26,881 nt of DNA from a virus. Where the stretch lies: positions 1-26,881 of IMG/VR virus record IMGVR_UViG_3300014914_000033. One strand, given 5' to 3'. Shown here in pieces: positions 124 through 26,881 of this stretch (position 1 is its first letter; the number at the start of each line of letters is the position of its first letter). The notes beneath the pieces were generated by a model. The model did no database searches. It was not told where the DNA came from and saw only the letters and a list, made by a program, of their open reading frames with translations. The position numbers were made by a program, and so were the translations under genes.

Positions 124-748
124 GGAGAAGATTAGTGAAGCGATGAAAAGCAAATCTGAAGTCGTAAGAAAGGAACTGACAGCTGTCAGTTCATATCCCA
201 AGACTCAAGAAACAACAGTGCAATTCGACAAAACCGACTTCCTTCACATACAGCAGCAAATCGCCCAGCAACTAACAGAATGTGAAGGCTGCGGAAGACG
301 CGTACACCGCACACGATTAAAAATCGTGAAGGGCAAACTTTTATGTCCGCTGTGCAGAGGAGAAAAACCGCAGCCGCCGCAGAGAGAGAGACGGGTTAAA
401 GTGACCAAGTCCAAAGACACTTGGCAACATCGCAAGGCGCAGATGCAGCCGCAACACAGCCAAATGGAGCTAGCTGTGCTGGAAAAGTTGAATGCGCTGG
501 GCGTTCCTGTAGAAACGGATGTGCCTTTCTGTTTGCAGCGCACTATACCTGACTTTTATTTTCCAACGAAGAACGTGGCAGTTTACCTTGATGGGCCTGT
601 GCATAAGGGCAGAGAAGACCGTGATGAGAACCAGCGTGAATTACTGGCGCGTTTGTATGGTATAACAGTAGTTTCAATATCTTATGAAAGACACAGTGTA
701 CAGGAAGCGGAGAGGATTATTCAAGAAATTCGGGAGGCGATACAATGA
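1..748 (+). CDS. ParB-like/HTH/zinc-ribbon/Vsr-like nuclease fusion, C-terminal part
   Basis: This is the 3' part of the gene that begins at 26232; the joined product is 424 aa. Residues below use whole-protein numbering. A helix-turn-helix lies at about 188-208 (VKQISEITGISERTIYRY). A zinc ribbon has cysteines C270, C273, C291 and C294. The C-terminus (about 330-424) resembles Vsr/DUF559 PD-(D/E)XK nucleases: an early Glu (E332), the motif TIPDFYF with D360, then VYLDG with D373 followed by H377-K378, and a downstream basic/acidic helix. Seen: all these motifs. Known: ParB-like domains bind DNA and, in some families, CTP or act as nucleases; Vsr-type folds nick or cut DNA. Inferred: a sequence-specific nuclease or nickase for replication, partition, packaging or host-DNA attack. 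The stop overlaps the next start. Confidence 0.8.
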   Translation, partial: EDIGMLIGFGYTVKQISEITGISERTIYRYMPDTLKDKERAEKISEAMKSKSEVVRKELTAVSSYPKTQETTVQFDKTDFLHIQQQIAQQLTECEGCGRRVHRTRLKIVKGKLLCPLCRGEKPQPPQRERRVKVTKSKDTWQHRKAQMQPQHSQMELAVLEKLNALGVPVETDVPFCLQRTIPDFYFPTKNVAVYLDGPVHKGREDRDENQRELLARLYGITVVSISYERHSVQEAERIIQEIREAIQ

Positions 749-10277: not shown

Positions 10278-10321
10278 AAAAAAGGGGAGAAAAGCTAGGC
10301 GCTTTTACCCTGCCTAGCTTT
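10278..10321 (-). terminator. Hairpin plus T-tract after capsid gene B
   Basis: A perfect 10-bp inverted repeat (10291-10300 with 10312-10321, 11-base loop) overlaps the capsid B stop codon. On the minus-strand transcript it is followed by TTTT, CTCCCC and then TTTTTT (10283-10278). This looks like an intrinsic terminator or an RNA-stabilising 3' end that separates abundant capsid transcript from the small-gene block downstream. Archaeal termination mainly needs the T-tract. Confidence 0.6.
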
Positions 10322-11393
10322 CCGTCAACACGTATATGCTGTCGTTGTAGACGGTTACGCTGTCCTGACGGGCCGTGACAGTGGCTCCCGCCAAGTCGCG
10401 GATTGGATCACTGTACTTCTCTATGCGAAGCCATCTTTTACGGCCGCTCAACAGCGCATAGTCCTTGTCGAACACAATTGTAACACAGTCTGTGAAGGCT
10501 TTGCTGTTTGTCAAAGTGTCAACGTCACTGTAAACCACGTTCATGCCTGCAAGGGTTGACGGCCACCCTTCCTTCACGAAAGAATCCATCAGCGTGACTT
10601 CAGCGTATTGGGCGCCTGCCGTCTCGATGATGCTGTGAAGCATAGCCTCATGTGTGACAACCATTGTATCAGGAGTGTAACCGTCATCCACCACTCCTTT
10701 AATCGCAGTTTTGATGTCGCTGGTTGTGCCGCCGCGGAACTTGGTTTCATCCGCGTCCCCAGTGTTGGCGCTGTTCACTGTGCCATCTCCGTCTGTCGCT
10801 GTTTTCAACACTGTCAATGCTTCGTTGCTTGCAAACTCACCCATCTCACGGCCTGCGTTGCGCAAGTGCATTTCTATAACGTCGAACTGGCTGTCTTCTA
10901 TAAGGTCGTTGGCTATCTGAAAGTTGATGCCCCAGCTTGTGGTGAAGTCCAAGGTTGCCTGCACGGTCTTAATTGTCTCCGTGGGCATGGATGCGCCGCT
11001 GCTGTACTTTTTAGGCTTGTAGCTTTCGTCCACGGCAATATCCACTTTAAGCGTGCTGCCAGGTATCTGGTCAGCAGGAATCATGGCTATGCTGATGTCT
11101 GCAACGATGTCGGCTTCAACTGCACTGTCAAACATGACTTGGTAGATTTTGTCGGGGATAAGGTAGGCTGCGCCTGCAATTCCAGTGGTTCCTGACTTAG
11201 CAAGGAACTCACGCAGTGGGATGCGCCGGAGGTTTTCCATGAGGGCCTTGCGTTTTTCAGGGTTGCCTGGGGCGTAGTGTTTAACTATGCCGAACTCGTC
11301 CCAGTCGAAGTATCCGTCGTCCAGTCTCTGTTTAACTTCTTTTATGAGCGGCTGCAGTTCGTCTTTCTGAACCATTTCTTGGATTCCCATCAT
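10314..11393 (-). CDS. Major capsid protein B (HK97 fold, paralogue)
   Basis: A 359-aa protein clearly paralogous to the product of 11926-13026. Both share the block REFLAKSG(T/S)TGIAGAAYLIPD near residue 60, a Leu-Ile-Glu-Asp segment (QIANDLIEDSQ), the KTATDGDGT loop, and a C-terminus of the type TDCVTIVFDKDYALLSGRKRW ending at ARQDSVTVY. The GRKRW/RQD C-terminal region resembles the P-domain and C-terminal strands of HK97-type coat proteins. The acidic helical N-terminus (about 60 residues) may act as a scaffolding arm. The neighbouring decoration, protease, portal and terminase genes support a coat role. Which copy predominates in the shell cannot be seen. Confidence 0.85.
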   Translation of the reverse strand: MMGIQEMVQKDELQPLIKEVKQRLDDGYFDWDEFGIVKHYAPGNPEKRKALMENLRRIPLREFLAKSGTTGIAGAAYLIPDKIYQVMFDSAVEADIVADISIAMIPADQIPGSTLKVDIAVDESYKPKKYSSGASMPTETIKTVQATLDFTTSWGINFQIANDLIEDSQFDVIEMHLRNAGREMGEFASNEALTVLKTATDGDGTVNSANTGDADETKFRGGTTSDIKTAIKGVVDDGYTPDTMVVTHEAMLHSIIETAGAQYAEVTLMDSFVKEGWPSTLAGMNVVYSDVDTLTNSKAFTDCVTIVFDKDYALLSGRKRWLRIEKYSDPIRDLAGATVTARQDSVTVYNDSIYVLTES

Positions 11394-11925: not shown

Positions 11926-13026
11926 TTATGATTCACTTATCTTGCAGCAAGCATCCTTATACAACGTTACACAGTCCTGCCTGCAGCTTATCACCGCCCC
12001 AGACAAGTCTTTCACTGGATGTGCATAGTTTTCGATTTGCATCCAACGTTTACGGCCGCACAGCAACGCTGCGTTTCTATCTAACACCAACGTGACGCAG
12101 TCTGTCATTTTGCCCGAGCTTGTTCCAGAGTGGAGTTCGCTGCTGTTGTTGAACACTACGTCTAAAACGTCGAATTTCAAGTCGTAGCCTGCTGCTGGCG
12201 CTCCAACATTCAGGTTGGCCGCTGTGGCCGTTGACACTATGGCGTCTGCCCAAGCCTCGTACGTAACTATCAGCGTGTTGGGATGCCAGAACTCTGCTCC
12301 AACCTCCCGTATGCCCTCCAACAGGTTTGCTGTTGTCGTAGTGTCTGCGCCCGCCGTGACTGCCGCTTGTGTTCCGTCTCCGTCTGACGCGGCTTTCAAG
12401 TCTGCAAGGGCAAGGTCTGTAGCGTACTGTCCAAGCTGATGCGCTGCCTGCCGCGTATAAAACTCCACTAGGTCGAAGGCCTGCGCGTCTTCAATCAAGT
12501 CTTGACCTATCTGAAGGTTTACGCTGAAGCTTTTCGGGCTCAATGTCGCCTGCGTTGTCTTCCACGTCTGCACGGGCATACGTGCTCCGCTTGTGAACCG
12601 TTTAGGCCGCATTGTCCATTTGCCGCCGTCAGCCGTGTTGGTGGTTGTCAACGTCTGCCTTACAACGATGTCGACTAGTAGGTCGCCGCCGTTCCACCCG
12701 TCAACCACTTGCGCGGCAAACAAGGGAACTTTGTCGGTTTCATGGCTTGCCGTAATCAGCTTCGTGTGCAACGCGTCTGGAATCAGATATGCAGCTCCAG
12801 CTATGCCTGTGCTTCCGCTTTTAGCAAGGAACTCTTTCAATGGCGTGCGTTTGAAAGTTTCTTGCAGTTCGTAGCGTAAGGCTTCGTCTTCCACTGCGAA
12901 AACACTGCATCGTGTATGCTCTGGTGTCTCCATGTTCGGGTGGAACTTGCCCCAACTGTCCATGGTGGCTTCGATGAGGTCTAGCTGCGGCTTAAGCTTG
13001 TCAACCATCTCTTGAAAACTCAGCAT
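11926..13026 (-). CDS. Major capsid protein A (HK97 fold)
   Basis: A 366-aa protein directly after the protease-scaffold gene, the usual place for the coat gene. It shares with capsid B the block EFLAKSGSTGIAGAAYLIPD, the region QIGQDLIEDAQ, KAASDGDGT, and the end TDCVTLVLDRNAALLCGRKRW followed by SCRQDCVTLY. The middle (about 90-150) differs, with a Trp/Arg-rich insertion. Residues 1-60 form an acidic helical arm that may be removed during maturation. Four Cys residues cluster near the C-terminus and are absent from B, which could allow disulfide or metal links. The protein is presumably the main shell subunit, alone or mixed with B. Confidence 0.87.
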   Translation of the reverse strand: MLSFQEMVDKLKPQLDLIEATMDSWGKFHPNMETPEHTRCSVFAVEDEALRYELQETFKRTPLKEFLAKSGSTGIAGAAYLIPDALHTKLITASHETDKVPLFAAQVVDGWNGGDLLVDIVVRQTLTTTNTADGGKWTMRPKRFTSGARMPVQTWKTTQATLSPKSFSVNLQIGQDLIEDAQAFDLVEFYTRQAAHQLGQYATDLALADLKAASDGDGTQAAVTAGADTTTTANLLEGIREVGAEFWHPNTLIVTYEAWADAIVSTATAANLNVGAPAAGYDLKFDVLDVVFNNSSELHSGTSSGKMTDCVTLVLDRNAALLCGRKRWMQIENYAHPVKDLSGAVISCRQDCVTLYKDACCKISES

Positions 13027-13032
13027 CGCCGT

Positions 13033-15282
13033 TTACCTCCGTTTTTTACGGGCAGTTTCACGCATCTCTTTAGCAGGGTCGCCTATTGTCACGTCAGCCG
13101 TTTCTTTAACAACTATTGGATTGTGGCCTTTGAAGTTGCCTTTAAGCTTGCTTTTAAAGTTATCCAATTCTGTTCTGATTTCCGCGGTTTCTTTAACAGT
13201 TTTTTCTACTTTTTCCTTAAGTTTGGCCTCTAGCTCAGCGATTTTCGCGTCTTTTTCCTTAACCTGCTCGCCTAACGTTTTCAGTTCTGCAACTACTTTA
13301 CTGTCCAATCCCTTCAAAACGTTGTCAAAGTCTTTCCGCCATTTAGCCAGTTCCTCATAGGCTTTCTCTAACGCCCCAAGGTTTTCTCGGATTTCGCTTA
13401 GGCTGCTGCACTGTTTGTTCATGGTTGTAGCTAACGAGCTCAAATATTTCTTCGTGTTTCTATTCATCGTTGACAATGTTTCCCTGACATACCGTGTTAG
13501 CTTGCGGTCTGCGTCGCTGCGGATTCTGCTTTCAACAATCCTTTGGCTGTGAAGGGCGGCGGGCAGTCTAGCCACAATCTGTGTCAGTTTGGCAACAGCG
13601 TCGACATCACTGTTACGTGTTTCTATGAGCTTGCCCAGTTTCTCTTCCACCCGCGAAAGGCGGATGTAAGTTTTTTCAGGGTTAAACGTTTCCTTCAAAG
13701 ACTCACCTATGAGTTTGCGTCGAATGTCAGCGCAGTACGCTTCCGGATCGCCCTTATCTTGGTTTTTGGATACGCAGTCGTCGAAGCTTGTGTACCCGGC
13801 TTTACTCCAGTCTGCATGCGGCACGTCCCCGGGCTCAGCTAGTTTCGGCAGAAGCTTAATCTCTCGGACAAGATCTGACACTTCGGTGGGAATTGTTTCG
13901 TCCGGTACACACGTGCCTGCTTCCGCGTCGTAGTGGCTGCCTTCTGGACAGTGATGTTCTTCGGGTGCTGGCGGAGGTTCGGGGAACGGGGCGGGCGGTA
14001 GTTTGCCTTCGTCCTGTTCGCCTATTGTTGGTTCAGGCGTCATCTGCGGGGCAGGAGTTTTCGCTGTCGGAGATATTTCAGGCCATTCTTTAGGCACGCA
14101 TTCTCCGTCTTTTAACACGAAACCTTCGGGGCATGGTGCTGGCGGCTTTACGGTGGGTTCTGGCGGTGGGCCTTGCTGTAGCTGTTCTGCAGCGCGTTCA
14201 AGATTGTACGCGAAAAGCTTGTCTTCCTCAATTTTTTTAGCCACGTGTCGGATTGCTTCTTGAACGGTTTTGTAGCCGTAGAACTCCATAGTATGCTTAA
14301 TGGTGCGGTTTTTAATTGCAGCACAGATTTTCTTCGCCTGCTCTTCAGTGTACCCGTCGCTCATGCGGTCGCGGACACATTGATCCCAAGGATAGTCTGC
14401 CTCTAAAATTTCTTCGCCGTGAATAGCTTTCTTATGAGCTATGCAACGCGGGTCGTCGGGATGTTCTTCGCAGTAGTGGCTTCCTGGTTTAATGTCTTCC
14501 TGTTCTTCGGATACAGGAACGCATTTGCCTTGTTCTTCGTCCCATTTTTCTCCTTCAGGACATTTTTGCTGTTCCGCTAGCTTTCTGGCTTGGTCTACTG
14601 TGATGCTCTGCTGCTTCGATATTGTAGGTGCTTTTGCCTTTTTCATTTTTTCTCTCCATTCAATTTTTTCTTTAACATCATGTGTTACTGTTTCCAGTAA
14701 CTGTGAAAAGTCCTTGTAGCCTAGTGTCTCCATAAGTTCGCTGGCAAAGTCAACTGTTGTTCCTTCCACTCCTGGAACTTCGGGGGCTACTACAAGGCTT
14801 AGGTATGTGCCCACGATGCCGTGGGGCTGTGTGATGCCGTTTTTAATTAGGTGTACTTCTCGCATGTGGTTGCGGAACTGTTCTTCCGTGTAGAATTTTT
14901 CTCCGCATTTGGGGCAGCGGTTGTAAAGGTATTCCGCTTCGATTGATACGCCGCGGATTCGCGGGTCTTTGTTGCGAAGCATGTCCACGTATGGCTGTTT
15001 TTTGACAACCGCCAAATATTCGAGGCAGCCGTTCTCGTATTCCATCCATTCCACGTGGCCAACGATGCGTTTAGGGTCATGGTTGATGGTGAGGGGTTTA
15101 CGTCGCCACGTGCGGGCTGCCCTTTTCAGTTCTTCGTCTACGTATTGTCTGAGGTTTCGGCTTGTTCCCGCGCATGCTGCGATGCCTTTGATGGCGACCG
15201 TGTTCTTGCCAACATCAGCGATGTCTTGGAAGGCTTCGCGGGCTAGCCAACTGAACTTTTCAGTTATAACTTGTTTAGTCAT
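13033..15282 (-). CDS. Fused capsid maturation protease and scaffold with C2H2 zinc finger
   Basis: 749 aa from the ATG at 15282, which has GGTG 7 bases upstream (a GTG at 15291 adds three residues). The N-terminal third is an HK97/XkdF-like serine protease: TINHDPKRIVGHVEW gives the likely catalytic His (H68), and GVSIEAE the Ser (S113). Directly after the Ser strand a C2H2 zinc finger is inserted (C123, C126, H139, H144), followed by the remaining protease strand (GTYLSLVVAPEVPG). The middle contains three CPEG...CVP repeats (about 241-256, 384-397, 445-460), two DxCV...YC-type motifs, and Pro-rich linkers. The C-terminus (about 540-715) is long coiled coil with a basic end, as in scaffolding proteins. 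Role: assemble procapsids and cleave scaffold and coat. Confidence 0.82.
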   Translation of the reverse strand: MTKQVITEKFSWLAREAFQDIADVGKNTVAIKGIAACAGTSRNLRQYVDEELKRAARTWRRKPLTINHDPKRIVGHVEWMEYENGCLEYLAVVKKQPYVDMLRNKDPRIRGVSIEAEYLYNRCPKCGEKFYTEEQFRNHMREVHLIKNGITQPHGIVGTYLSLVVAPEVPGVEGTTVDFASELMETLGYKDFSQLLETVTHDVKEKIEWREKMKKAKAPTISKQQSITVDQARKLAEQQKCPEGEKWDEEQGKCVPVSEEQEDIKPGSHYCEEHPDDPRCIAHKKAIHGEEILEADYPWDQCVRDRMSDGYTEEQAKKICAAIKNRTIKHTMEFYGYKTVQEAIRHVAKKIEEDKLFAYNLERAAEQLQQGPPPEPTVKPPAPCPEGFVLKDGECVPKEWPEISPTAKTPAPQMTPEPTIGEQDEGKLPPAPFPEPPPAPEEHHCPEGSHYDAEAGTCVPDETIPTEVSDLVREIKLLPKLAEPGDVPHADWSKAGYTSFDDCVSKNQDKGDPEAYCADIRRKLIGESLKETFNPEKTYIRLSRVEEKLGKLIETRNSDVDAVAKLTQIVARLPAALHSQRIVESRIRSDADRKLTRYVRETLSTMNRNTKKYLSSLATTMNKQCSSLSEIRENLGALEKAYEELAKWRKDFDNVLKGLDSKVVAELKTLGEQVKEKDAKIAELEAKLKEKVEKTVKETAEIRTELDNFKSKLKGNFKGHNPIVVKETADVTIGDPAKEMRETARKKRR

Positions 15283-15499
15283 TTTGTTCACCGAGCTTCA
15301 GCTCTAAATACTGTTTGAAAAGAATGAGCACTTCACGGTTTAGCGGCGGCCGCGGTTTAAGGCGTGTGGGCGGATGCCGTAGCGGAAAGCCTGTGCTGGG
15401 CTGCACTGCAGGCACACCGTATTTAGGCCAGTAGTTGGGCTCCCAGTATCGGCTGGGCCAGTAGGTTGTAGGCCAGTAGCCTGCGTTCAGTAACGCCAT
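15275..15499 (-). CDS. Aromatic-repeat (YWP) virion-associated protein
   Basis: A 74-aa protein. The first 28 residues are a tandem repeat of Tyr-Trp units (GYWPTTYWPSRYWEPNYWP), then a Pro/Arg-rich linker and a short C-terminal helix (VLILFKQYLELKLG). Similar YWP-repeat proteins accompany structural genes in many tailed phages; their function is poorly known. The 3' end overlaps the protease gene start. Expected to be a minor virion or assembly component. Confidence 0.65.
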   Translation of the reverse strand: MALLNAGYWPTTYWPSRYWEPNYWPKYGVPAVQPSTGFPLRHPPTRLKPRPPLNREVLILFKQYLELKLGEQND

Positions 15500-19093: not shown

Positions 19094-20286
19094 ACGAAAT
19101 ACCCCCTAGGCCTGCTAACCTGCCACGCAGCCAACGCCAACGCAATAACACAGTCGTCATGGTAGCCTTCAGGCGCCCCATAACGAATCGTGCCCGACGG
19201 CGTTGTCGTGTACCCGTAAAGTTTAAGCTCGTTCACCAACTCAGGAATATCTGGAAAACTTATCTTGCGGTTGTCGATAAGAATGCTGAGGTTTTCTATC
19301 AAGTCTTTTTTGCTTGCACTCGTAAACTTGTACCCTTCAACTTTCACATTGTTCCGTCTTAGTTCGTCCAGTACTGGATCTCCAACTCCTGTGCTGTCGA
19401 TAAGCAGTCTAGCCTTGTACCGTTGAGCCAAATTGACGATACGCCGCCGCTGGAACACCCAGTCCAACTCACTGAAACGGTCGAAGGCGCAAAGGTGACC
19501 GTCGTTGTCCAAAACACAGAGTACGGTGAAGTCCTGATGTTTCGCAAGATCAGCTCCCATAACATACGTTTTATGCAAGACAGGCGGTTCCAAACTTCCT
19601 TTAACACATTCTTCAACCCCGCGAAAAACACTTCCAACATCCTCAATAAACTGCGCGTAAATTTCCTGGCGTAGCGCAAGCTCAGGCATGTCCCGGGCGA
19701 AATCTTCAATTTCTTTAGGGTCAAGGTATGGGTTGCTGTGAGATGGAAACGTCCAGCTTTCATAGTCTTTCTGAGCAGGGTCTTGTCCGCGAGTCCAAAG
19801 TCGGAAGTACCAGTTTTTGCCTTTCGGGGTGCCTGTAAACCATGCTACGCCCTTCCGGTCCATAAGCGCAGGTCTCAACGCAAGATCCCACGCTTCCTCT
19901 TTGATTTGACCGCCTTCATCCATCCAAAGCCAATCCAACCCTTCGCTTCTGAGGCTGTCAGGATTGTCCGCGCTTTTAAACCAAACGTGACGGTCTCCTA
20001 CCAAGCGGATGTGATGGTCTGCACGGTTGATTTCCACGATAAGCACGCGAGGGCAGAACCGCAGGAACTCACGCCACATTTTCTGAGTATGCCAGTATGT
20101 TGGCGCTACGCAGAAGCCTACGCTGCCCGGCGGAGATTTGGTGGCTTGTCTTATGGCTTCGTTGGCTCCGCAGATGGTTTTGCCCCAGCGTCTGCCGCAG
20201 GCTAGAATGCGGAACCGGGCTTTACTTTTGTGAAACAGTTTTTGTCCGGGATGCGGCTTGTATGGAATGGTTAATGTGAGACTCAT
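19090..20286 (-). CDS. terL: Terminase large subunit
   Basis: A 398-aa packaging ATPase/nuclease. The Walker A (CGRRWGKT, about 30-37) and Walker B (LDWLWMDE, 117-124) plus coupling motif TGTP (151-154) form the ATPase. The nuclease half has RNase H-like acidic sites: MGADLAKHQDF with D246, LLIDSTGVGDP with D297, and GYHDDC with D377/D378. The full set of acidic and P-loop residues is present, so it should be active. The ATG at 20286 follows GGGAG closely and lies within the end of the small terminase gene. It docks on the portal and pumps DNA into procapsids. Confidence 0.95.
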   Translation of the reverse strand: MSLTLTIPYKPHPGQKLFHKSKARFRILACGRRWGKTICGANEAIRQATKSPPGSVGFCVAPTYWHTQKMWREFLRFCPRVLIVEINRADHHIRLVGDRHVWFKSADNPDSLRSEGLDWLWMDEGGQIKEEAWDLALRPALMDRKGVAWFTGTPKGKNWYFRLWTRGQDPAQKDYESWTFPSHSNPYLDPKEIEDFARDMPELALRQEIYAQFIEDVGSVFRGVEECVKGSLEPPVLHKTYVMGADLAKHQDFTVLCVLDNDGHLCAFDRFSELDWVFQRRRIVNLAQRYKARLLIDSTGVGDPVLDELRRNNVKVEGYKFTSASKKDLIENLSILIDNRKISFPDIPELVNELKLYGYTTTPSGTIRYGAPEGYHDDCVIALALAAWQVSRPRGYFV

Positions 20287-20617
20287 CGGACTCCCACTTT
20301 AAAATTATTTCATGTAATTCTTCAGCCATTAACGGTTTTTTATCTAATAGTTTGCCAAGCAGCTTTGACACTTGCCTATATGCTTCTACAAGATCCTTGC
20401 TTATGATTCGGCTGTGGAGACGTAGCCATTCTTCGCGAAGCCAAGCTTCAAATTCGCCGGATTTAACCCATGCGTTAATGTCGCGGTCTATGGTTTTTTT
20501 TGATACGCCGCAGCTTTCTCCAATTTTTTCATGGGATAAGCCTAACAGTAGCCCTGATTTGATTTTAGGTAGTCTTTTAAGTGTTTGTTTGGAGAGAGTC
20601 ATTTTGGGACATTTCAC
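20222..20617 (-). CDS. terS: Terminase small subunit (HTH)
   Basis: A 131-aa protein with an N-terminal HTH (LLLGLSHEKIGESCGVSKKT, about 23-42) and a helical C-terminal section (LREEWLRLHSRIISKDL) typical of small terminases. It sits immediately upstream of TerL, overlapping it by 65 bases. Role: recognise the viral packaging site and bring TerL to it. Assigned mainly from the HTH, size and position. Confidence 0.8.
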   Translation of the reverse strand: MKCPKMTLSKQTLKRLPKIKSGLLLGLSHEKIGESCGVSKKTIDRDINAWVKSGEFEAWLREEWLRLHSRIISKDLVEAYRQVSKLLGKLLDKKPLMAEELHEIILKWESDESHINHSIQAASRTKTVSQK

Positions 20618-22222: not shown

Positions 22223-22569
22223 GATGGTTCACAGTTTAAACTTGACAGTCTACGCGGCAGGTTCTCAGTGTCCCTGCGGAAATACTGCCAGAACATGCGT
22301 GTGGGGTTGGTGTTGTTGAAATAGTCTTTCAGGTTGACGATTATGGTGTGGTTGTACACGCCTTTACGGTTGTACTCGTCGTTTACAGGGACAATGTAGC
22401 TTACCGCGCCATACTGGTCGTTGATTATTGTGCGTAGGCATCGGGGTTTGTCCGCCATGCTGCCTAGGTGGATGAGGAACTCAAGCTCTTCCAGAGACAG
22501 GATTTTCTCAAGGTTCGGTGATGCTGCAACCAAGCGTGAAAGCAGACTTATGAACTGTTCACATTTCAT
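22195..22569 (-). CDS. Hypothetical protein between GTPase and membrane rod
   Basis: A 124-aa soluble protein whose ATG overlaps the GTPase stop (ATGA). N-terminal helices (FISLLSRLVAASPNLEKIL, LEELEFLIHL) are followed by a beta section (GAVSYIVPVNDEYN, HTIIVNLKDYF) and a Cys-containing tail. No motif recognised. Strict coupling to the GTPase suggests a partner or regulator. Confidence 0.6.
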   Translation of the reverse strand: MKCEQFISLLSRLVAASPNLEKILSLEELEFLIHLGSMADKPRCLRTIINDQYGAVSYIVPVNDEYNRKGVYNHTIIVNLKDYFNNTNPTRMFWQYFRRDTENLPRRLSSLNCEPSCTNHKKRE

Positions 22570-23534
22570 GTGGCAAAACCAAGCAGAAAATCAATCAAGT
22601 CAACATAACTTTGCAAGTCACAATCAGGAATCCGCCTGTGCTTAATAATTATCCGCGGCGTTCCGTCTTTCCACGTTTTAGGCGTGCCATCACTGTTGCG
22701 TTCCACGTGAATGTAGCTGGGAAAAACGCGGATGTTAGCTCCGAAGCCGAAGCCGTGATCCTTCAAGGTCATGCTGGTCTGCGGAAAACATGTGTGCATA
22801 AACTCGTCTAAACCCCGCCCAGTAGGATCGTAAATGTCCATACCCCAGTTAGGCGCGTAGCTTTCAATAGTATCCCACTTTGTGATCACCACAGCAATGC
22901 CCTTGATGGGTTTACCGTGGCTCTGCTCTTTATACGTGAAAATGCTGTTCAAAACCCGGGTGAGATACACGTCTGGGTCTTCCTGCACTTCGTCGCTGGG
23001 CATACTGTAGCCTTTAATTCCTAAGGCTCGGCTGCTGTCGACGCAGAGGATATACCCGTCGCATTCTCGGACATAGTTAACAAGGTTCTGCGCTAAACTG
23101 TAGGCTACTGGTGCGATGTTCTGGGCGGTGCGGCTGTACTGGGCTACAAGAATGTCAATGTCTTCTCCTGCAATGTCAACTATGGGCACTTGAATTTTGC
23201 GTTCTCCAAAACTGGTTTTCTGCCGCATTAACAAGCCTGCTTCTGCCGCGTATCGCATGTGCGCTGTTGTTTTCGGTGGAAAATGGCCTTGTCTTAGATG
23301 GCTGACCGCGTCTAGAATGCTGCTTGTTCCTTCCAACACGCGGCATCTGAACGTGGGCATGTCGCTGCTAAGCACCTGCGCTGCAAGCACCAGCATCGCG
23401 CTAACAGTTGTTTTACCGCTGCCCGTAGGCCCTAGCATGGCGAAACGTGTTTTATACGTGTACAGTTGGGTGGGCATTATGGGCTGCGCTGGCTTTTGAA
23501 AGATTTTGGTGCGCAATTTGTTTAGAAAGCTCAT
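22566..23534 (-). CDS. GTPase-like P-loop NTPase
   Basis: A 322-aa protein with an intact P-loop GPTGSGKTT (35-43), a G3-like DIAGED (120-125), a hydrophobic strand with DSS (YILCVDSSRA), and a G4-like TKWD (218-221), all in the order of TRAFAC GTPases. It resembles the 'double-GTPase' type proteins found with membrane or defence systems more than a packaging or replication ATPase; there is no RecA or helicase motif. The C-terminal region (about 245-322) is a beta-rich domain of unknown type. Flanked by four membrane proteins. Likely role: nucleotide-driven action at the membrane, such as virion exit, entry or host interference. The biochemical role is inferred. Confidence 0.75.
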   Translation of the reverse strand: MSFLNKLRTKIFQKPAQPIMPTQLYTYKTRFAMLGPTGSGKTTVSAMLVLAAQVLSSDMPTFRCRVLEGTSSILDAVSHLRQGHFPPKTTAHMRYAAEAGLLMRQKTSFGERKIQVPIVDIAGEDIDILVAQYSRTAQNIAPVAYSLAQNLVNYVRECDGYILCVDSSRALGIKGYSMPSDEVQEDPDVYLTRVLNSIFTYKEQSHGKPIKGIAVVITKWDTIESYAPNWGMDIYDPTGRGLDEFMHTCFPQTSMTLKDHGFGFGANIRVFPSYIHVERNSDGTPKTWKDGTPRIIIKHRRIPDCDLQSYVDLIDFLLGFAT

Positions 23535-24635: not shown

Positions 24636-24745
24636 GAAAACGTTTGAGTAAAGCTGCACGGAAATGGCTTATCAAAGCGGCAAGCGTTCAGGAAAACCCG
24701 TTTGAACAGGCTGAACTATTGTATATTATATGGAGTTACAGCTAA
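24629..24745 (+). CDS. Basic helical microprotein, 38 aa
   Basis: ATG at 24629 (GTG at 24632 also possible), overlapping the zinc-ribbon gene by 7 bases and ending in TAATG with the next. N-terminus is strongly basic (RKRLSKAARKWLIKAA), the C-terminus hydrophobic-aromatic (LLYIIWSYS). Function unknown. Confidence 0.45.
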   Translation: MVRKRLSKAARKWLIKAASVQENPFEQAELLYIIWSYS

Positions 24746-25993: not shown

Positions 25994-26235
25994 AGGATTT
26001 GCTTGAACTTTTAAAGTTTCTCGACGAAAAACTCGGAGAATTCACCATTACAACTGATAGAAACTATGTTGAAGAAGATGATTTATCTCTTTTCATAACT
26101 TTAGGTAAAGAGGAATGCTTGGAATTTGAGGATTTAAAGAAAATTTCCGAGTTTTGCGACGATTTAACAGTAAACACGGACAATGAAGGGAAGTTGTTTC
26201 TGCATCTTCTGTTCTTGCCGAAGAAGGGAGAATGA
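25990..26235 (+). CDS. Hypothetical acidic protein, 81 aa
   Basis: Acidic alpha/beta protein (LLELLKFLDEKLGEFTITTD; EFEDLKKISEFCDDLTVNTD). Its stop overlaps the start of the nuclease-fusion gene, indicating coupling. No known motif. It could be an inhibitor or partner of the downstream nuclease; this is only suggested by position. Confidence 0.55.
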   Translation: MKDLLELLKFLDEKLGEFTITTDRNYVEEDDLSLFITLGKEECLEFEDLKKISEFCDDLTVNTDNEGKLFLHLLFLPKKGE

Positions 26236-26881
26236 TGAAGGATATTTACCAGCTTCTACAGGAATATGCTGGTCTAACAAGGCAAGAAGCAGAAGAACGA
26301 TTAGCAATAGAAGACAACGGCACAGAATGGATACTCAAACTCAGAACACATTTGGAATATTCAACATACAGAGCCATTCTCGACTTAGCCCGTGACCACG
26401 GCGGAGCCTACGATCCCAACCCGCCGCGCAAATTTATAGTACCCAAACCCACAGCAAAACCGCAGGGCATAGCCGCTGCATCAGAAGAAGGAGTTAAACC
26501 GCAGCTTTTAGAAATGGAAAACAAAAAGAACGAAACACAAGACTACAGTTTAGCCCGCAGCCTCCACAGCCCACTACAACAGCTAGTGCCATGCCTAGCT
26601 GACGCAGAAGGAAAAATTTTCGACGGCTTCCACAGAAAAAAAATAAACCCAAACGCGTGGACAGTGAAGCTGGATCACATTAAAACGCCTGTAGACCGAG
26701 CGCTAGCGCGGATGACTGTCAACTTTTGCAGAAGACATTACACGGCTGAAGAAATGCGAGAGGACATTGGCATGCTAATCGGTTTTGGTTATACTGTGAA
26801 GCAGATTAGTGAAATAACGGGAATTAGTGAGCGTACGATTTACAGGTATATGCCTGACACGCTGAAGGATAAGGAACGGGC
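26232..26881 (+). CDS. ParB-like/HTH/zinc-ribbon/Vsr-like nuclease fusion, N-terminal part
   Basis: Begins with ATG at 26232 (a second ATG follows), overlapping the previous stop; continues into base 1 of the circle and ends at 748 (424 aa in all). Residues 1-105 are helical and then linker-like. Residues about 108-165 are ParB-like: SPLQQLVPCLADAEGKIFDG then FHRKKINPNAW, where ParB families have a GxxR-type motif (here DGFHR). A helical region leads into the HTH at about 188-208. The remainder is described under bases 1-748. No ParA partner is seen, so classic partition is unlikely. Confidence 0.8.
   Translation, partial: MMKDIYQLLQEYAGLTRQEAEERLAIEDNGTEWILKLRTHLEYSTYRAILDLARDHGGAYDPNPPRKFIVPKPTAKPQGIAAASEEGVKPQLLEMENKKNETQDYSLARSLHSPLQQLVPCLADAEGKIFDGFHRKKINPNAWTVKLDHIKTPVDRALARMTVNFCRRHYTAEEMREDIGMLIGFGYTVKQISEITGISERTIYRYMPDTLKDKER
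26759..26881. repeat. Terminal direct repeat, right copy
   Basis: Exact copy of bases 1-123. Joining base 26758 to base 1 gives a closed circle of 26,758 bp and restores an intact 424-codon gene. True fixed direct terminal repeats of a linear virus are possible but less likely, because the boundary falls in the middle of a gene. Confidence 0.95.

Follow-up and report, generated by a model that had tools for sequence, protein, structure and literature searches.

The Fusion Gene and Its Circular Genome

ParB proteins are familiar as clamps that act in segregation, and the question raised by the locus described here is what such a DNA-binding module might be doing in a virus when it forms one polypeptide with a Vsr-like nuclease. 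The window, by which we mean the whole stretch of 26,881 nucleotides analysed from IMG/VR record IMGVR_UViG_3300014914_000033, carries an exact 123-bp direct repeat at its two ends (positions 1-123 are identical to 26759-26881), and the record is therefore circular, with 26,758 unique bases. When the two ends are joined, a stop-free reading frame for a single protein of 424 aa runs across the junction, as a preliminary description of this DNA had reported; the motifs of the joined protein include CEGC at 270, CPLC at 291, PD at 359-360 and YLDG at 371-374. A 425-residue homologue (L095, in virus G032; contig IMGVR 3300033156_001050) is collinear with residues 5-423 at 44-46% identity and spans the junction, from which it follows that the join is real and that the joined frame is a genuine gene. 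The order of domains in the window protein is an N-terminal domain, a ParB core, a helix-turn-helix (HTH), a four-Cys element and a Vsr-like nuclease (Table 1). The N-terminal domain was not part of the preliminary description, and neither were the palindrome and the cassette exchange that are described below.

Table 1. Positions in the window of the fusion gene, its encoded parts and the associated palindrome
Feature	Position	Strand	Basis or remark
Fusion gene, 5' part, codons 1 to 176	26232..26758	+	Joined ORF, 123-bp repeat, L095 collinearity
Fusion gene, 3' part through the stop codon	1..748	+	After circularisation
N-terminal alpha/beta domain, residues 1-75	26232..26456	+	pLDDT >90, homologues
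ParB/Spo0J core (predicted), residues 103-165, DGFHRKK at 131-137	26538..26726	+	Foldseek, Z-scores
ParB-type HTH (predicted), residues 166-212	26727..26867	+	Crosses the junction, to 109 in the other copy; HTH_7
20-bp perfect palindrome GAACTGACAGCTGTCAGTTC, codons 234-240	173..192	.	Proposed cognate site of the ParB-HTH module
Four-Cys element, C270/C273/C291/C294	281..355	+	CxxC at 270 and 291
Vsr/DUF559/EDxHD-like nuclease (predicted), residues 325-424	446..745	+	Fold matches, invariant residues
Codons of nuclease residues	E332 467-469, D360 551-553, D373 590-592, H377 602-604, D384 623-625

Predicted Structure of the Two Halves

AlphaFold models were made of the window protein's own two halves (residues 1-216 and 255-424), each aligned with relatives. 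The model of the first half has a pLDDT of 82; most of the N-terminal domain and of the ParB-HTH part exceeds 90, and residues 76-106 form a disordered linker. Ranks 1-14 of the Foldseek matches to the ParB-HTH model are all held by ParB, Spo0J, KorB and pNOB8 ParB structures, Caulobacter ParB included, at probabilities of 0.91-1.0 and with modest E-values (best 0.0075); the Z-score is 7.5 over 101 residues against Spo0J (1vz0_C) and 8.2 against the KorB-operator and ParB-parS complexes. Pfam places HTH_7 at residues 178-209 (E 1.7e-5, above the curated cut-off) and has no family match to the ParB core of the window protein, and PHROG ParB matches to this protein are weak; in L103, a homologue with the same architecture, Pfam identifies HTH_ParB at E 4.1e-10. 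The GxxR and NxxRR motifs, which along with Glu motifs are tied to CTP binding and clamp formation in ParB proteins, remain in the window sequence, and the Glu residues of the canonical motifs are absent. By its predicted fold, the ParB-HTH half belongs to the ParB/Spo0J superfamily. The preliminary description had recognised a ParB-like core around DGFHRKK and an HTH, and had staked its reading on a ParB fold at residues 108-165; the structure prediction places a ParB fold there, followed by an HTH of the ParB type. The N-terminal domain is homologous in G032, G035 and G036 and alignable in L103, L133 and L134, and its PDB matches reach only Z ~4, which does not argue for a new fold, because another domain can fill the match list of a single model.

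In the second half, the four cysteines that had been described as a zinc ribbon are certainly present, and they are kept in all seven of the other virus fusions (L103 has the variant Cys-Cys-Cys-His), but no family gives the element a firm match (best 0.0039, of DksA/TraR type). The model of residues 255-424 has a pLDDT of 74 overall and of 80-90 across most of the nuclease, which aligns with NGO0050 (3hrl) at Z 10.4 over 87 residues (2.1 A), with the catalytic domain of I-Bth0305I at Z 9.9 and with Vsr at Z 9.6. These scores exceed those of most unrelated rows, Foldseek by itself giving weak E-values only, and Pfam matches DUF559 at residues 354-423 (E 8.9e-5, above the curated cut-off). Eight aligned sequences all have S329, D360, Y371, D373, H377, D384 and V399, position 332 is E or D in the aligned fusions and in a stand-alone nuclease (L117), and the same nuclease core is kept in L133 and L134; in G035 and G036 the residue that corresponds to D360 varies with the alignment used. 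The models thus assign this half a Vsr/EDxHD fold with conserved E, D, H and D residues, which bears out the PD-(D/E)XK/Vsr-like end with D360 and D373 of the preliminary description, as well as the C-terminal nuclease fold by which that description was to be judged. Conservation of the nuclease-core residues across the fusions suggests that catalysis is under selection in this family of proteins.

Relatives of the Fusion Gene

A single-protein scan of viral contigs with the window protein gave no match, and relatives were reached instead by way of the terminase (TerL) and through alignments. Seven other virus records and a contig of a metagenome-assembled genome (MAG) have the same architecture, and each of the nine fusions, the window's included, has the ParB-HTH, the Cys element and the nuclease. 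A search for the same fusion, which had been recommended at the outset for archaeal viruses, has in this way turned an apparent one-off into a small virus family. The genome of G015 is syntenic with the window over the structural genes and has its fusion gene at 22252-23241; later scans added L095, L096, L097, L101, L103, L108, L133 and L134, of which L103 is a 3-kb contig assigned to a Desulfobacterales MAG (possibly misbinned). The fusion gene is absent from the available sequence of terminase relatives that are ~70% identical (G001-G014), these records being fragments. A set of 50,697 phage records contained no match, and plasmid matches were confined to Sulfolobus ParB proteins, weakly and over the ParB part. 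The portal protein of the window matches haloarchaeal tailed viruses, and the carriers probably constitute a group of archaeal tailed viruses.

Related modules also occur apart from one another. G034 has a split form, in which a ParB-HTH gene without the nuclease is accompanied by a separate 115-aa DUF559/Vsr-like nuclease (L117:1315-1662), and second ParB-HTH genes that lack a nuclease lie near tyrosine integrases in G015 and G036 (L083:1492-2250 and L116:1495-2421). The window virus has no integrase and no second ParB.

Among the other genes of the window, 10314-11393 and 11926-13026 are tandem paralogues, probably of major capsid type, that share a 75-bp repeat (71%) and both have homologues in G015. 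The reading frame at 13033-15291 (752 aa) has a C2H2-finger-like stretch and repeated CPEG...C motifs that match the CBM_14 chitin-binding profile. A P-loop protein (22566-23534) is conserved beside structural genes in G015, G033, G035 and G036; it matches double-GTPase families, and a ParABS partition system, considered as a candidate, was rejected with no ParA recognised among the window proteins that were scanned. A methyltransferase-like ORF at 2255-2722 has a DPPW motif of N6-adenine type and falls below the Pfam cut-off; restriction-modification was likewise rejected, this ORF having no tblastn match in six relatives and that of G035 being unrelated. Early-region genes of the relatives include DUF5131/radical-SAM-like and PAPS-reductase-like ones (L130:8666-9382, L121:125-838 and L126:4727-5446). 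Rfam and tRNA scans of the window returned nothing, and PADLOC returned weak partial matches only.

A Palindrome at the Edge of the ParB-HTH Module

The palindrome of the window lies between the HTH and the Cys element and is the sole perfect palindrome of at least 14 bp in this genome. Perfect palindromes with different sequences occupy the same place in G035 (AAGTCGCACGTGCGACTT), G036 (CTGCGAGCTCGCAG) and L103 (AAATTTACACGTGTAAATTT), and near-perfect ones do so in G033, G015 and G032. The strongest inverted repeat sits at one or other border of the ParB-HTH segment in 9/9 fusion genes (the zone fractions multiply to 9e-8, the zones being partly post hoc). The fusion gene, which makes up 3.8% of the sequence of eight genomes, contains five of their six perfect palindromes of at least 16 bp (binomial 4e-7). 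When the linker repeats of the first ten genes were compared with synonymous-codon shuffles, p ranged from 0.0066 to 0.49, with weak values for G032 (0.06) and G015 (0.04) among them, and the Fisher combined value was 4e-7. Because the pattern was first noticed in some of these ten genes, L133 and L134, which were found by ParB-HTH similarity alone and after the pattern had been set, act as a subsequent test. The predicted linker of L134 contains GTTTCCACGCGTGGAAAC, a perfect palindrome of 18 bp (p 0.006), and L133 has the half-sites of L134 around a different centre, its 3' repeat being imperfect (p 0.12). The two share GTTTCCA-N4-TGGAAAC, a conservation that is due in part to protein homology, since the half-site codes for conserved residues. 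Palindromes at the 5' edge in two viruses (22 bp in G035 and 16 bp in L133) are left unexplained by a model with a single site. The scanned palindromes are single-copy in their genomes, and a search for iteron arrays, tandem repeats and extra copies of the site found none.

The window and G036 share CTGNNAGCTNNCAG, and their modules are ~85% identical over the best part; by our own estimate, the odds of such likeness between the two sites are roughly 1 in 80. The palindromes of L103 and G035 have a CACGTG centre, as does the parS of B. subtilis.

The 18-bp core of the window palindrome, AACTGACAGCTGTCAGTT, recurs without a mismatch in G038 (IMGVR_UViG_3300035179_000328) at 24674-24691, equivalent to L138:5674-5691. 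A stand-alone ParB-core ORF of 65 aa, which precedes terS and terL, follows this copy at a distance of 63 bp, and terS lies ~300 bp downstream of the copy; the palindrome in the fusion gene of G038 itself has a different sequence. This copy is the sixth of the perfect palindromes of at least 16 bp counted above, and the only one of them outside the fusion gene.

Exchange of the Module Together with Its Palindrome

The proteins of G035 (L101) and G036 (L108) agree at 39/40 positions of the N-terminus and at nearly 100% of the final 180 residues, whereas identity in the ParB-HTH core is only ~35%. In its core L108 is closer to the window protein, with up to 34/40 positions identical, the remainder of these two proteins being ~30% identical. 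At the DNA level, homology of 96.8% between G035 and G036 resumes at L101:8727 and L108:8808, which is 5 bp after the palindrome in G035 and 3 bp after it in G036. As judged from these alignments, G035 and G036 have exchanged the ParB-HTH cassette only, and because the palindrome ends just before the recombination junction in both, it is part of the exchanged cassette.

Possible Functions of the Fusion Protein

The reading that we prefer, tentatively and at a little under an even chance, is that the fusion protein is a site-specific DNA endonuclease that binds the palindrome in its own gene and cuts its own genome there. The ParB-HTH module would be a sequence-specific, probably dimeric, DNA binder and the C-terminal Vsr/EDxHD-type domain the cutter. 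The module would recognise the palindrome that follows immediately downstream of the HTH codons in the same reading frame, by virtue of which the binding domain and its cognate site would form one exchangeable cassette. The palindrome is read as the cognate dyad of a ParB-HTH dimer because it is loopless, lies beside the module and travels with it, and because similar recognition helices pair with similar sites, as in the window and G036 and in L133 and L134. Once bound, the enzyme would make a nick or a cut in the viral genome itself, at this single site or close to it, and action there is the simplest supposition, given that every member has an apparently intact nuclease and a site. We infer, in short, that the protein binds its palindrome and cuts there. 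Cutting within its own gene needs some form of control, and none is visible in the sequence. Of the uses suggested in the preliminary description, that of a host-genome degrader finds no support; what the palindrome and its exchangeable cassette indicate instead is a single site in the viral genome itself.

The most likely use would be the opening of the circular genome for replication, an arrangement that would resemble lambda O and the origin within its gene, with packaging or concatemer processing as the next choice. Taken alone, the replication role is clearly less probable than the cutting itself and must be called doubtful, because base composition does not support it: GC skew in the window follows gene direction, and the palindrome lacks an AT-rich flank, so that neither provides an independent sign of an origin. 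Nor was other independent evidence of replication found for the window virus. In agreement with the preliminary description, the scanned window proteins included no recognisable integrase, ParA or known initiator, and Pfam scans of the larger early proteins of the window and its relatives identified no known replication initiator. More doubtful again is the full proposal, namely that a ParB-clamp endonuclease nicking at a palindrome in its own gene represents a new kind of initiator of replication or genome processing whose binding domain and site are swapped together. If this were true, each virus would have a private origin or incompatibility type, and the combination of a ParB, an apparently intact nuclease and a private in-gene site would tie clamp loading to DNA cutting. 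It could also explain how replication starts in small archaeal viruses without a recognisable initiator, and the family offers protein/site pairs for tests of binding and cleavage, as well as possible site-specific nickases.

Other readings have to be weighed against cutting of the virus's own genome. A free-standing nuclease of the homing type, or one that excludes rivals by cutting other viruses, could bring about the cassette exchange through break repair at the palindrome; I-Bth0305I is among the best structural matches, the exchange boundary abuts the palindrome, and the exact 18-bp core of the window site is found in G038 upstream of terminase genes. We nevertheless regard this as unlikely. 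If the palindrome is the target, it is present in every carrier, each with a strong one inside the fusion gene, whereas the target of a homing gene is as a rule missing or interrupted in the genome that carries the gene; neither an intron nor an intein was seen (Rfam found none), and a methyltransferase able to protect the site is not conserved among the relatives. An autoregulator, or a segregation or copy-number factor, in which the ParB part binds its own gene as an operator or centromere while the nuclease has a regulatory role or works at another place, seems quite improbable to us, with no ParA recognised and with the nuclease-core residues conserved in every fusion as if catalysis were selected. 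It would nonetheless agree with the nuclease-less ParB-HTH proteins of the relatives, some of them beside integrases, and with the fact that ParB proteins bind a 16-bp parS whose centre in B. subtilis is the CACGTG seen in L103 and G035.

The presence of a single site per genome, and of the G038 palindrome ~300 bp upstream of terS and terL, would suit a packaging or concatemer-processing nuclease, for which the palindrome would be a pac- or cos-like site inside the gene of the protein that recognises it; a pac site inside the gene for the terminase small subunit is known in other phages. The window site, however, is ~6 kb from the terminase genes, and a separate TerS-like gene (20222-20617 in the window) directly precedes TerL there and in the relatives, which makes the packaging-site nuclease of the preliminary description less likely; we consider it improbable. 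To view the palindromes as having nothing to do with binding, and as RNA hairpins or the mutational products of template switching within a disordered linker, is in our estimation the least probable of these readings. The linkers are variable and of low confidence in the models, and the palindromes differ in sequence among viruses, as would be expected; yet they are mostly loopless dyads concentrated in one gene family, the 18-bp core of the window recurs exactly in G038 outside a coding linker, and L133 and L134 keep their half-sites despite different centres.

Comparison with Known Systems

The ParB fold, the HTH, the Vsr/EDxHD nuclease and cognate sites within genes are each already known. 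Their combination into a swappable module-plus-site joined to a nuclease was not found in the families, records and literature searched; the literature search found no description of a ParB-HTH/nuclease fusion. The fusion resembles ParB, Spo0J, KorB and pNOB8 ParB in its predicted core and HTH fold, in its GxxR-type and NxxRR motifs and in the HTH_ParB match of L103, and it resembles the ParB/parS pair in having a short palindromic dyad near the gene. It differs from this family in that the window has no ParA, the start of the ParB N-domain is missing (the alignment begins at Spo0J residue 50), a C-terminal nuclease takes the place of the dimerisation domain, and the palindrome is different in each virus. 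With I-Bth0305I and Vsr it has in common the nuclease fold, the acidic and His residues and a cleavage domain that is linked to a DNA-binding region distinct from it; in contrast to these enzymes, it would bind through a ParB-HTH, has no intron or intein context and keeps its own palindrome. The DUF559 protein NGO0050 (3hrl) is the best structural match to the C-terminal domain, which also has the Pfam match, and is, unlike the fusion, a compact stand-alone protein, a form that G034 possesses.

In phage lambda, ori lies inside the O gene, and O binds ori by means of its amino-terminal half (PMC4488673). The fold of the fusion is unrelated to that of O, its site is a single palindrome rather than a set of iterons, and the AT-rich element and skew switch of the lambda O type are absent at the window palindrome; it also has a nuclease domain where O has a domain that recruits helicase. 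What the two share is a DNA-binding half at the amino terminus and, in the fusion gene, a proposed site within the coding sequence that follows it, the role in replication being for the fusion a proposed one.
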